The notes below the pieces were generated by a model, which was given only the letters and a program-made list of their open reading frames with translations, was not told the DNA's origin and ran no database searches. Both the position numbers and the translations under genes were made by a program. 64,000 nt of DNA from Trichococcus pasteurii (GTDB lineage Bacteria > Bacillota > Bacilli > Lactobacillales > Aerococcaceae), in NCBI RefSeq assembly GCF_900112935.1, contig NZ_FONM01000001.1, positions 248,001 through 312,000 on the forward strand, written 5' to 3'. The first letter of the stretch is position 1; each line of letters begins with the position of its first letter. This document shows positions 38,010 through 42,161 of this stretch, in pieces.

Positions 38010-38100
38010 AAATCAACAACTCTGAATGAAGCCTCCAATGCAAAAACAAGTATTCTGTATGAACTGTTGCTGAGGTGAGCCTCGCTAAAACAGCTATAAA

Positions 38101-38144
38101 AAAAGACGAGGCCGTCTCTTGAAAAAGAAATAGTCTCGTCTTTT
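38101..38144. terminator. Bidirectional terminator between convergent operons
   Basis: AAAAGACGAG and CTCGTCTTTT around a 24-base loop, with A and T runs on the outer sides. It serves the minus-strand redox operon and backs up the nitroreductase terminator. Confidence 0.75.
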
Positions 38145-38186: not shown

Positions 38187-39383
38187 TTATGCCTTGACTG
38201 AGGCGCTAGTCCCGGCATCCACGTCATCGCCGTGGTGATCCTTGATTGAGGCGCTGGAAACGGCATCGACATCGCCTTCCAGTTTTTGGCCGGTCTGAGC
38301 CAAGTACCAATCGATGATCGGTTTGAAGTCAAGGATGTATTCGTTGACGCCGGCATAGTTGCCATCTTTGTCATGCAGCGCTTGATAATTATGCACGACA
38401 TACTTGTCCGGTCCATGCGTCGGAACGTTGACACGGAAGGCATCCATTGTGCCGGAACGCAATTGTTGAAGTACCCATTCCACGCCTTTGTGCACTCTTT
38501 CTGGATGGCATTTGGCGAGCGGGTTGCCGACTTGGCCGGGTACGCGCGCAGCCAGCATTTCTTCTGCGGGCTTCGTATGGTTATAGTACAGGAATTGGTT
38601 GTTGCTGTCGGCATACGTCAATTCCATCGGCATCGACGCCAGGAAGTAATTCAGCTGATCAACGGTCAACAATCCGCGTTCCAGTTTGACGTAGGTATTG
38701 CCTTCCACAGCGCCCACAAGCTCAGCGGCTTGTTCCAGCCAGTCGTCGGCTTCCTTATCGACGCCTTCAATCGTGGTTGCGATCTTTCCGGTAGCGTAGA
38801 GGTCTTCCGGTTCGAGCACCGGTTTTTTCGGCCCTTCAACAACAGAGACCAACGAGATGAACTGGGTGAATTTTTCCAGACAAGTGCCTAGAAAATCGAC
38901 TGTGCGCTTGTCTTTCAGATTTTCCTGATCATCGAAGGCTTCTTTGACTTTTCCCAGCAAAAATTCATTACCCGGAAGGACGATGGCATTGACGCCTGGT
39001 GCATCGAGAATTTGACGCAGGTGCAGTTGGGCCCGGGAAGAACCTTGGTCATAGTAGGAAGCTCCCACAATCATGACCGGTTTGTTTTCCAATGGATGGA
39101 TTTTGAAGGACAACCATTCCAGTACACTCTTCAAGCTTGCAGGGATCGTATGGTTATGTTCAGGAGTGGCGATGATGACGCCATCCGCCTGCAGGATTTT
39201 TTTGGTCAGCTTTTGGATAGGGGCGCTGTTTGTTTGGTCATCACTCTGATTGAACAAAGGGATGTCCTTGATTTCCAATATCTCCAGGTCGAACAAGTGG
39301 CTGAATTGTTTTTTGATGTATTTCAACAAGATGCGATTATATGATATTTCCGCGTTGGAACCTACTATACCGACTAATTTCAT
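38187..39383 (-). CDS. NADPH-dependent FMN reductase fused to a PAS domain, with two C-terminal flavinylation-like motifs
   Basis: 398 residues. Residues 1-about 180: flavodoxin-like FMN reductase (KLVGIVGSNAEISYNR, ADGVIIATPEHNHTIPASLK, GSSRAQLHLRQIL). About 235-365: a PAS domain of the DUF438-tail type (MELTYADSNNQFLYYNHTK, GNPLAKCHPERVH, ending GVNEYILDFKPIIDWY). The tail holds two repeats: D373-A-V-S-S-A-S379 and D389-A-G-T-S-A-S395, each in the context DVDAx(S/T)SASxK. These fit the D-x-x-(S/T)-(G/S)-A-(S/T) sites where ApbE attaches FMN, and apbE is two genes upstream in the same operon. Covalent FMN on S379 and S395 is inferred. No signal peptide, so cytoplasmic. Last gene of the operon. 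Confidence 0.88.
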   Translation of the reverse strand: MKLVGIVGSNAEISYNRILLKYIKKQFSHLFDLEILEIKDIPLFNQSDDQTNSAPIQKLTKKILQADGVIIATPEHNHTIPASLKSVLEWLSFKIHPLENKPVMIVGASYYDQGSSRAQLHLRQILDAPGVNAIVLPGNEFLLGKVKEAFDDQENLKDKRTVDFLGTCLEKFTQFISLVSVVEGPKKPVLEPEDLYATGKIATTIEGVDKEADDWLEQAAELVGAVEGNTYVKLERGLLTVDQLNYFLASMPMELTYADSNNQFLYYNHTKPAEEMLAARVPGQVGNPLAKCHPERVHKGVEWVLQQLRSGTMDAFRVNVPTHGPDKYVVHNYQALHDKDGNYAGVNEYILDFKPIIDWYLAQTGQKLEGDVDAVSSASIKDHHGDDVDAGTSASVKA

Positions 39384-39401
39384 GATGTTTATCTCCGATC
39401 T

Positions 39402-40010
39402 CTAGTTATTTTCCCAAGAAAAGTTTTCAGCTGCTTTTACGTGTGCGGCGTGGGTGTGCGATAGTTGTTTCATGATGTTGATAAACATTAGGAAGTCCTC
39501 GAACAAACCTTCCAGTTCTTGGATCTGATCCGGATTTTTCAGGTTGTTGTCTGCGTCGAAAGCCTGCAAAGAATGGCTGAGCAGGAACTCGGAACTTGGC
39601 ATGATGCGGGCTTTCAATTCGGGCGCATCCAAGATTTGACGCAAATGCGCTTGCGCCCGTGAGGAACCCAGTACGCCATAGGAAGCCCCTGTGATCATGA
39701 CGGGCTTGTCGACGAAGGGATAGATGCCGTAGGACAACCAACTCAAGGCGCTCATAAGGGAAGCGGGAACTGCGTGATCGTATTCTGGTGTGCTGATGAT
39801 GACGCCGTCAGCTGCCTCGATCTTTTCTGCCAAAGCTTTCGCTTCAGCTGGGATCTGCATGTCCGCCGGTTTGTCGAAGATCGGCAGGTCCTTGATTTCG
39901 ACGATTTCGATGTCTGCCTTATCCGCAAAATGCTTTTGGATGTATTGCAACAGCATGCGGTTAGTGGAGTGGTCCGAGTTTGTGCCGACGAGGCCGATTA
40001 ATTTATTCAT
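39402..40010 (-). CDS. NADPH-dependent FMN reductase
   Basis: 202 residues, a single flavodoxin-like domain closely related to the N-terminal half of the next gene (MNKLIGLVGTNSDHSTNR, ADGVIISTPEYDHAVPASLMSALSW, GASYGVLGSSRAQAHLRQIL). It lacks the PAS domain and tail motifs. Start ATG 40010 follows GGAAGGAAG; a longer frame to 40028 begins in the ribosome site. It would supply reduced FMN or reduce quinones or azo compounds. The two paralogues probably arose by tandem duplication. Confidence 0.9.
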   Translation of the reverse strand: MNKLIGLVGTNSDHSTNRMLLQYIQKHFADKADIEIVEIKDLPIFDKPADMQIPAEAKALAEKIEAADGVIISTPEYDHAVPASLMSALSWLSYGIYPFVDKPVMITGASYGVLGSSRAQAHLRQILDAPELKARIMPSSEFLLSHSLQAFDADNNLKNPDQIQELEGLFEDFLMFINIMKQLSHTHAAHVKAAENFSWENN

Positions 40011-40051
40011 GTGAATACTTCCTTCCAATTTTTAAATTTTTTATGATTCAT

Positions 40052-41008
40052 TTAAACACGTGATTGAGAAAGTTGTTTGCGTTGCAGCCGGTTTTCCAAG
40101 CCTTTGGAGCAGAAGAGGCTGCCGTCTTTCGTGATCAGGATGCCGTCGATGGCTTCCGAGTGATCCAATGCGGCTAGGATCACATCGGCAGGTTGGCCGA
40201 ATAAACGCGTCGTCCAGATTTCTCCATCGACAGAGTCATCAGCAACCACAGTCAAGCTGATGACATCCGTTTCTGCCGGATAGCCGGTCTGTGGGTCCAG
40301 AATATGGTGATAGTGCTTGCCTTGGGCTTCCAGCTGCCGTTCATACACACCGGATGTAACCGCTGATTGGTTCTGGATCTTCAATACCGCGCTATAATGC
40401 GCGCGGGGGAGCAATGGGTTTTGGATGCCTATGCGCCAATAGGAATCTTCATGGTTCTGGGATGGTCCGAACACGACGACATTTCCACCCAAATTGATGA
40501 GGGCGGAAGCTACACCGGCTTCCTTGAAGTATGCCGTCAGTAGATCGGCAATATAGCCTTTTGCCAAAGCCCCCAAGTCGATGGCCATGCCTACTTCCTG
40601 AAGGAAAACGGTCTGATCCTTCTCGGACAACAGGATTTTGTTTGGATCGGTGATTTCGAGAAGCTGCTGAATTTCTTCGGCATCCGGGATTTTTGCATCA
40701 CCAAAACCGATCCGCCAGGTCTGCACCAACGGCCCGATCCCGATATTCAGACGACTGTTGGGGGCTAAGCTGTGGCATTTCCCCACCTTGATCAAGTGAA
40801 ACAAATCAGGATGGACGGCAAGAGGGGCTTTACCTGCCAAGTGGTTGATCTGCATCAGCTCCGACTTTGGGTCATTGGCGTTGAAACGTTGTTCGTATGT
40901 TCTCAGGCGTTGGATCGCCCCTTCCAAAATAGCGTCCGGGCGCGTATGTGTCACAAGCAAGTCGATAATCGTTCCCATCAGACGGACCGTTGCTTTTTTT
41001 TGTTCCAT
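40052..41008 (-). CDS. apbE: FAD:protein FMN transferase, ApbE family, cytoplasmic form
   Basis: 318 residues. Transfers FMN from FAD to a Ser/Thr of a target protein. Seen: MGTIIDLLV near the start, AIDLGALAKGYIAD, LINLGGNVVVFG, HHILDPQTGYPAETD and the C-terminal DDSVDGEIWTTRLFG (position of the usual D-x-x-S/T metal-site motif). There is no signal peptide or lipobox, so it should act in the cytosol. ATG 41008 fits the AGGTGGGG site better than GTG 41020. The probable substrate is the C-terminal tail of the gene at 38187. Confidence 0.92.
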   Translation of the reverse strand: MEQKKATVRLMGTIIDLLVTHTRPDAILEGAIQRLRTYEQRFNANDPKSELMQINHLAGKAPLAVHPDLFHLIKVGKCHSLAPNSRLNIGIGPLVQTWRIGFGDAKIPDAEEIQQLLEITDPNKILLSEKDQTVFLQEVGMAIDLGALAKGYIADLLTAYFKEAGVASALINLGGNVVVFGPSQNHEDSYWRIGIQNPLLPRAHYSAVLKIQNQSAVTSGVYERQLEAQGKHYHHILDPQTGYPAETDVISLTVVADDSVDGEIWTTRLFGQPADVILAALDHSEAIDGILITKDGSLFCSKGLENRLQRKQLSQSRV

Positions 41009-41036
41009 TTTATTCCCCACCTTCAGGATAATCTTG

Positions 41037-41912
41037 TCATTCCTTTACGAGATTCCCTGAAAGGATCTCGCTTTCCAACTGCTCTAATTCCTTCAACGCG
41101 ATTGTGTTTTTGTTGATTTTTGAATAGGCTCTGGCATCGTGGATCAATTCCAGCACTTCTTGTTGCGGCTTCTCCTGGATGATGGCATTCTTGGCCAACT
41201 GGATGGCTGCACGGGCAAGATAGTAGGTCACGTGATTGTCTGAACAAATGGAGACAGCATAGGACAGCAACGCATTGCTCAATTCGATCTCATCAATCTG
41301 GGCAAAGAAGGTGCCGCTTTGGAAAACAATATTCAGTACACGCCAGACATCCTCCATCGTGTTGATGGGATAAGCGTAAATTTTTTCCAGGACCTTACTG
41401 AAATAAAACTCTGCTTTTTCCAGTTTTTTTTCACGGCTGTAGACCATGCCGATACCGGTATAAGCCAGCAAGCGATAGATTTCCACGTCGTCCTTATCAG
41501 ACAGCAAGATTTGATCGAAGGTGAACAATACATCCGTCACTGGAACCTGCTGCGCAATCATGATGAAGCCGTTCAAATAATGGAAGCGTAATGCCAGGCT
41601 GTTTTCTTCGATTTCACTCACGGCGATGCTCTGCAGCAAGTCCGAGGCTTGGTCGTATTCACTTGTGATCAGAAAAAATTCTGCTTTGTTCATTTTTTCT
41701 GTCGCTTCTGTATACTTGACGCCTACTTTAGGGAACAGCTCCCCCAAGGGTAGATTCAGTCGGTTGCACAGCTTGATCAGAATTTTAAGATTCGGGACTT
41801 GACCGTTGTTCTCAAATCGACTCAAGGTAACTTGGGTGCAGATGCCCTCCGCCAGCTCCATCTGCGAAAGGTTCAATGCTTTACGGACTTCAATAAATCG
41901 TTCGATGTTCAT
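41037..41912 (-). CDS. Helix-turn-helix regulator with TPR domain (Rgg/RRNPP-like)
   Basis: 291 residues. N-terminal XRE-type helix-turn-helix (about 1-60: FIEVRKALNLSQMELAEGICTQVTLSRFENN) followed by a helical repeat domain like the peptide-sensing TPR of Rgg/PlcR regulators. First gene of the minus-strand operon, 28 bases before apbE, so it probably controls the redox genes. A signal peptide gene was not identified nearby. GGAGG precedes ATG. Confidence 0.85.
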   Translation of the reverse strand: MNIERFIEVRKALNLSQMELAEGICTQVTLSRFENNGQVPNLKILIKLCNRLNLPLGELFPKVGVKYTEATEKMNKAEFFLITSEYDQASDLLQSIAVSEIEENSLALRFHYLNGFIMIAQQVPVTDVLFTFDQILLSDKDDVEIYRLLAYTGIGMVYSREKKLEKAEFYFSKVLEKIYAYPINTMEDVWRVLNIVFQSGTFFAQIDEIELSNALLSYAVSICSDNHVTYYLARAAIQLAKNAIIQEKPQQEVLELIHDARAYSKINKNTIALKELEQLESEILSGNLVKE

Positions 41913-42161
41913 TTTTTTCCTCCATAATAATCGAAGCGGCTCGGATGGCAGCAGCGGAGATTCGAGTTGATATTGTGCTTTATTTCACATTTGTTATATG
42001 GGTAATTATACGCTTACTGAATATAAGGGTCAATAGAATATATAAAAAATTATATAAAAGAATGGTTGGAATATGCATCACGACTTCTGAGAAGGCTTAT
42101 CATTTCCAAATTATAAGTAAGTGTATTAGACTATTCTTACAAAGACAAAGGAGTGAATGAG

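Follow-up and report, generated by a model that had tools for sequence, protein, structure and literature searches.

Work on two kinds of bacterial flavoprotein bears on the operon studied here. ApbE, the flavin adenine dinucleotide (FAD):protein flavin mononucleotide (FMN) transferase, acts on a seven-residue motif, and the available text of a review (PMC12052999) adds that tags favour a terminus and that Klebsiella has a cytosolic ApbE. Huang et al. 2024 (PMC11334425) described apbE-linked FMN_red proteins, mostly from Firmicutes, whose C-terminal extensions contain one or two motifs; ultraviolet gels showed flavinylation by ApbE of the Lactococcus lactis and L. taiwanensis proteins, and alanine exchange abolished it. 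In the work of Valladares et al. 2015 (PMC4500961), the purified FRedA/FRedB complex from Lactobacillus johnsonii proved to be a heterodimer; it oxidised NADH, formed H2O2 and used FMN as a substrate for reduction (Km for FMN 20 µM, kcat 146 per s), while LjPAS, a separate 28-kDa PAS protein, slowed the formation of active FRedA/B in vitro; homologues of LjPAS are fused to the reductase in other Firmicutes, with L. plantarum and E. faecalis named. Here we analysed a 64,000-nucleotide stretch of Trichococcus pasteurii DNA (contig NZ_FONM01000001.1; hereafter the window, whose numbering is used throughout), in which four head-to-tail minus-strand genes (41912 to 38187) encode a regulator, ApbE, a stand-alone FMN_red protein (RED) and an FMN_red-PAS_10 fusion (FUS). 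Open reading frames and Pfam confirmed this operon as the first-pass annotation had drawn it. We consider it reasonably likely that it specifies a cytosolic two-subunit NADH:flavin oxidoreductase that would pass electrons to FMNs attached by ApbE to the tail of FUS.

FUS shares with the proteins of PMC11334425 an FMN_red domain, an extended unstructured C-terminus with motifs and an apbE neighbour. FUS-like genes also occur on an L. lactis plasmid (L092), where a Crp/Fnr regulator and apbE accompany RED and an FMN_red-PAS fusion of 403 aa bearing two motifs, so the flavinylated Lactococcus protein of that study probably belongs to the FUS family; in the available text of PMC11334425, the whole words PAS, peroxide, NADH oxidase, johnsonii and Lactobacillus are all absent. 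Since tail flavinylation was shown there for Lactococcus, flavinylated FMN_red tails are already known, and the first-pass description of the arrangement as undescribed falls, also in view of the cytosolic Klebsiella ApbE (PMC12052999) and of the fusion noted in 2015 (PMC4500961). For the window's FUS, homology makes covalent FMN on the tail very likely.

Three further systems were compared within the available text of their sources. The Klebsiella fumarate reductase (PMC12052999) likewise combines a cytosolic ApbE with a soluble target, but it differs in fold and enzyme and has no FMN_red. Multi-FMN proteins of Streptomyces and Clostridiaceae (PMC10339131, PMC12052999) carry several covalent FMNs per protein, as proposed for FUS; their sites, however, lie in folded FMN-binding domains of exported proteins, whereas those of FUS lie on a tail predicted to be disordered. 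HcrA/HcrB, the hydroxycinnamate reductase of L. plantarum (PMC10295242), is an adjacent FMN_red pair and a proposed heterodimer, like RED/FUS, but the covalent-flavin module of HcrB is FMN_bind followed by FAD_binding_2, where FUS has PAS and the tail.

Motif-bearing tails and ApbE

FUS (38187..39383, minus strand, 398 aa; Pfam, structure prediction and Foldseek) consists of FMN_red (residues 1-146, E 1.5e-38), PAS_10 (residues 244-353, E 4.9e-27) and a tail with two ApbE motifs, located exactly where they had been claimed: DAVSSAS (D373-S379; 38247..38267, minus strand) and DAGTSAS (D389-S395; 38199..38219, minus strand), with predicted FMN on S379 and S395. Pfam gave no PF04205 (FMN_bind) match in FUS at E <= 1. 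The AlphaFold model (62-row alignment; mean predicted local distance difference test score, pLDDT, 85) contained two confident domains, and the tail is predicted to be disordered because pLDDT was below 50 over residues 371-398. Foldseek aligned the first domain with ChrR (3svl), 1rtt and FerB (3u7r); for the second, the match was S. mutans SMU_1151c (2qkp), in its C-terminal domain (template modelling score 0.88 on the target). ApbE (40052..41008, minus strand; PF02424, E 3e-73) has an N-terminus, MEQKKATVRLMGT, that opens directly at the catalytic fold, and by eye no signal peptide was seen and the ATG at 41008 appeared likelier than the listed start at 41020. The first-pass annotation was right that a soluble FMN_red-PAS protein bears a motif tail and neighbours an ApbE with no apparent signal peptide.

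We assembled 105 FUS proteins, comprising that of the window, 80 loci (the best 80 of 161 relatives), 4 plasmid loci and 20 further loci, and counted the pattern D-x-x-[ST]-[GSA]-A-[ST] in their tails. The results showed at least one motif in 102 of the 105 tails: one in 7, two in 58, three in 29, four in 6, five in 1 and seven in 1 (L097, on a single tail). Altogether 246 motifs fell within 5,005 tail residues, compared with one in 38,792 residues of protein body, and shuffled tails contained a mean of 3.1 and a maximum of 8 motifs over 200 rounds. Shuffling the 30-residue tail of the window's FUS 100,000 times produced two motifs only 3 times. Motif starts were mostly 12 to 21 residues apart, and among the 65 six-frame ATG-started open reading frames of at least 150 aa in the window, the motif occurred in FUS only, in two copies. 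Across seven Trichococcus-type sequences, motif codons displayed 140 silent versus 24 amino-acid differences (24/164) and tail-linker codons 85 versus 78 (78/163), with counts pooled over all sequence pairs, which are not independent. A degenerate DNA pattern for the motif run over the own genome gave 47 matches against 58 in the reversed control; the pattern was poorly written and was discarded.

ApbE tracked the tail across 295 Lactobacillales genomes, where a fusion was scored when a listed match extended to query residue 359 or beyond; divergent fusions (G064, G142, G211), proteins with three PAS stretches (G036, G284) and split systems counted as fusion-negative. Among the matches listed, and uncorrected for relatedness, ApbE was present in 122/122 genomes with a full-length fusion versus 140/173 others (p 6e-9); the corresponding counts among the 89 genomes lacking FMN_bind proteins were 45/45 and 12/44 (p 1e-14). 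Fusion, exactly one ApbE and no FMN_bind protein coincided in 39 genomes. At locus level, ApbE lay within 3 kb of FUS in 83 of 104 loci and was missing from that range in 21, a RED homologue lay within 300 nt in 104/104, and a regulator homologue occurred anywhere in the locus in 38/104 related loci.

Twelve genomes were searched separately. Six reductase pairs without PAS and tail, hand-picked from partial matches (L230-L235), had no ApbE across the 11 kb read around each; genome-wide, G044, G138 and G193 gave no ApbE match, and G156, G205 and G241 gave one elsewhere. Together with the 122 fusion genomes, these pairs bear out the co-occurrence of tail and apbE that the first-pass annotation had asked homologues to show. 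The other six were two genomes with three-PAS proteins, one with a PAS-less reductase that keeps a motif-like tail and also an adjacent ApbE (L236), and G091, G238 and G245, whose single distant reductases had neither motif nor ApbE in their 3.5-kb loci.

A tail left unmodified in vivo, its motifs a by-product of low complexity and its apbE serving other targets, is a very improbable alternative. It would suit the 21 loci without a nearby ApbE and the three tails (L062, L093, L105) with degenerate motifs only (D-x-x-A-S-A-S and similar), two of which (L093, L105) adjoin fumarate reductase. The shuffle controls, the codon changes, the 39 genomes with one ApbE and no FMN_bind protein, and the flavinylated Lactococcus relatives (PMC11334425) argue against it. 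Homologues that keep apbE without tail motifs were mostly absent among the 105, the exception being L062, whose degenerate tail has ApbE adjacent. Alanine at motif position 4 may, at a guess, be a tolerated variant, because it recurs in the PAS-less reductase tail beside ApbE (G270: L202, L236).

A crude pattern scan found no lipobox in 83 of 84 ApbE rows of the fusion loci (L011-L115), the exception (L042) lying inside an upstream extension; in the same scan, the lipoprotein ApbE of the own genome (L001) did show one. That lipoprotein-type ApbE stands beside a small predicted lipoprotein with a DAVTGAT-like site (L001, 1411-3144), an arrangement resembling that of extracellular electron transfer systems. 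This genome also has another signal-less ApbE, adjoining a NapH-like iron-sulphur membrane protein with FMN_bind (L002, 1480-2397 and 2402-3829), whose FMN sites are expected outside the cell despite the signal-less neighbour.

PAS proteins in trans and the FRedA/FRedB/LjPAS system

Two adjacent FMN_red genes and a PAS_10 protein are common to the window and to the FRedA/FRedB/LjPAS system (PMC4500961), but the PAS is supplied in trans by LjPAS and in cis by FUS. To compare the two arrangements, we used a genus of the same order (g26, 13 genomes), 12 of which had LjPAS-type proteins of about 245 residues. This genus is presumably Lactobacillus, because of the 245-aa PAS protein, the spacing of the reductase genes (11-13 nt in 8/10 loci; 12 in PMC4500961) and a weak L. 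intestinalis match. LjPAS-type proteins carried motifs in 11 of the 12 genomes (three in nine, two in one, one in one; for example DATTGAT, DTATGAS and DTNSGAS), and the twelfth gene (L126) reads as a frameshift immediately ahead of the motifs; PAS_10 was matched at E 4.6e-19 in the protein of L116. Nine second, shorter PAS proteins of g26 had one motif each near the C-terminus, and four short homologues of 145-155 residues (L140-L142, L144) had none. In total 30 PAS loci were scanned, of which 4 gave no match; L129 and L131 re-entered the analysis as L193 and L191, respectively, and L143 and L145 were left out.

The reductase pair of g26 was motif-less, and in 10/10 genomes examined apbE was separated from it by no more than two gene positions on the shared strand (one or two genes away). 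Because the pair lacks a motif yet has this nearby apbE, the likely ApbE target acts in trans, which suggests that the peroxide-forming flavin reductase of lactobacilli also uses tethered flavins. A tyrosine phosphatase-like gene lies between the pair and apbE (L181-L190; Y_phosphatase3 by Pfam in L181), with a MupG-like gene as well in 4/10. In a tree where five g26 loci were represented by one reductase each, RED grouped with HcrA (0.89) and FUS with HcrB (0.68). RED and FUS probably form a heterodimer of both neighbouring reductases, as published for FRedA/FRedB (PMC4500961), which makes the first-pass term self-contained doubtful. In the open-licence literature, among the matches listed, no publication joined LjPAS or FRed with flavinylation. 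Nor did a published account turn up that identifies the operon's enzyme with the FRed/LjPAS system, reports PAS proteins with motifs in trans or arrays of several PAS, or proposes a tethered substrate.

PAS domains are often sensors. It is accordingly conceivable, though improbable, that the PAS binds the tethered flavin or another ligand and that the tail flavin is a redox signal tuning reductase assembly, as proposed for LjPAS, with which active FRedA/B formed more slowly in vitro (PMC4500961). However, LjPAS came from E. coli, and ApbE and covalent flavin go unmentioned in the available text of that paper, so an unmodified carrier may account for the effect; the presence of several motifs per tail is also hard to account for by sensing. 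If electron transfer to tethered flavins is the right reading, LjPAS, described as modulating the formation of H2O2 in L. johnsonii, would be a multi-flavin electron carrier studied without its flavins, and we predict that its published biochemistry used unmodified protein (PMC4500961).

Tethered flavins as electron acceptors

In the mechanism we propose, the operon would encode an NADH:flavin oxidoreductase akin to FRedA/FRedB and HcrA/HcrB, with PAS and a flexible tail on its second subunit. The dedicated signal-less ApbE would couple FMN through a phosphoester to the final serine in each motif (S379 and S395). The reductase pair, with its non-covalent FMN, would then take electrons from NADH and hand them to the tethered FMNs, which would stand in for free FMN, the substrate of such reductases. 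The reduced arm might deliver electrons to O2, forming H2O2, or to a partner protein, for example a FAD-only fumarate reductase in some lactobacilli. We infer the role of the tail flavins as acceptor, and likewise their onward targets. In its general form, the proposal is that the reductase naturally reduces, instead of free FMN, between one and about nine FMNs tethered to a disordered arm carried by PAS, whether in cis (the three-PAS proteins included) or in trans; we regard this as evenly balanced. A crude Gaussian-chain estimate for linkers of 9-60 residues gave a local flavin concentration of 0.9-15 mM at 20-30 Å and 0.02-1.9 mM at 40 Å, which would mostly be far above the FMN Km of FRedA/B (0.02 mM; PMC4500961).

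Besides the degenerate tails and the loci without a nearby ApbE, several points weigh against this mechanism. The window's protein is known here from its sequence and predicted structure; the g26 pair branches apart from RED and FUS in the tree; and no match to the fumarate reductase of L098 was found at E 1e-15 in 28 of the 38 listed fusion-bearing genomes of g21, a genus we infer to be Streptococcus. From models, Huang et al. 2024 (PMC11334425) propose that the tail FMN occupies the flavin site of the reductase. It is therefore possible, although we think it rather unlikely, that the tail FMN folds into the reductase's own pocket and merely prevents cofactor loss, with no relay. Such an anchor could help, given that FRedA/B has a dissociation constant for FMN of about 2 µM and was purified with 0.58 mol FMN per dimer (PMC4500961). 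On the other hand, the motifs of g26 sit on a separate PAS protein, and up to seven motifs (L097), or eight to nine in the three-PAS proteins, exceed the two pockets of a dimer.

The three-PAS proteins (G284, L228 5347-7920; G036, L229 8145-5578) are open frames of 901 and 882 residues, each with one FMN_red part and three stretches resembling the PAS of FUS. Their predicted FMN attachment motifs, eight in G284 and nine in G036, are scattered between the PAS stretches, and ApbE is next door. In G249, a 717-codon open frame combines two PAS_10 stretches with six motifs.

An HcrB-like protein (L095) unites FMN_red, FMN_bind and FAD_binding_2 in a single polypeptide; its reductase domain has 60% identity with that of FUS, and the protein resembles a one-piece form of the route proposed for FUS. 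An HcrA/HcrB-like pair elsewhere (L194, 1485-6619) includes a larger protein with a DVISGAS motif and has ApbE close by, which suggests that HcrB-type enzymes are flavinylated too.

Two candidate partners were rejected. In three lactobacilli-like loci fumarate reductase is physically linked to the pair: fumC, frd, RED and FUS run head to tail in L098, and fumC/frd adjoin RED/FUS divergently in L093 and L105. As a general acceptor it was set aside, linkage having been seen in these three loci and a match missing from the 28 g21 genomes. The L098 enzyme was matched in 179/295 genomes, with many listed matches inside open frames of 500-540 aa, which we take to be exported reductases. A pyridine nucleotide-disulphide oxidoreductase, read as NADH oxidase, adjoins the operon in 21/83 loci, which we read as shared streptococcal ancestry.

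The proposed mechanism joins ApbE flavinylation with the H2O2-forming flavin reductases of lactic acid bacteria, and a disordered arm with several flavins would be a simple way for nature to build a soluble multi-flavin carrier. It supplies an ApbE target for the 39 sampled genomes with a single ApbE and no FMN_bind protein, a gap raised by Meheust et al. 2021 (PMC8238504), whose available text noted orphan apbE genomes and left out genes without signal peptides. If it is correct, such arms would be the targets of many otherwise orphan apbE genes in streptococci and lactobacilli.

Other operon features and distribution

The first operon gene (41037..41912, minus strand) encodes an XRE-type helix-turn-helix regulator with tetratricopeptide repeats (HTH_3, E 4.6e-11; TPR_1, E 5.5e-5, under its cut-off). 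RED, the probable heterodimer partner (39402..40010, minus strand), contains FMN_red only (PF03358, E 4.6e-35); by eye, its ATG at 40010 was preferred over an upstream TTG, the listed open reading frame beginning at 40028. Upstream of the regulator, a scan gave a promoter-like site, TTGACC-17-TATAAT (11/12; 42005..42033, minus strand), in a region with 5 such sites against 6.3 in shuffles. After FUS, a possible terminator with a 5-bp stem, a 4-nt loop and a T run (38098..38117, minus strand) was noted by eye and not reported by the terminator scan. Overall, the promoter and terminator scan of the operon region revealed no enrichment relative to shuffled DNA.

At E <= 1e-45, FUS was matched in 2 of 348 genomes from across the phylum, namely that of the window and another from its order; relatives were also listed from Amphibacillus, Gracilibacillus, Oceanobacillus and Halolactibacillus. 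G064, G142 and G211 encode more distant fusions of FMN_red, PAS and tail, each followed directly by ApbE (L191-L193; Pfam on the first two). Five records named Trichococcus (L011, L012, L013, L015, L016) encode proteins 91-96% identical to FUS. Records titled Sedimentibacter sp. SX930 (L014) and Roseburia sp. 1XD42-34 (L023) contain FUS at 95% and 78% identity and are apparently mislabelled Bacilli genomes. In S. agalactiae, according to the available text of PMC6224512, apbE and two adjacent FMN reductase genes, listed as cytoplasmic, shift together (-2.09, -2.11, -2.12). The PAS-tail part of FUS matched 95 Enterococcus plasmid records, and on an E. faecium plasmid (L091, 6286-11959) the entire operon of regulator, apbE, RED and FUS is flanked by two copies of IS1216.

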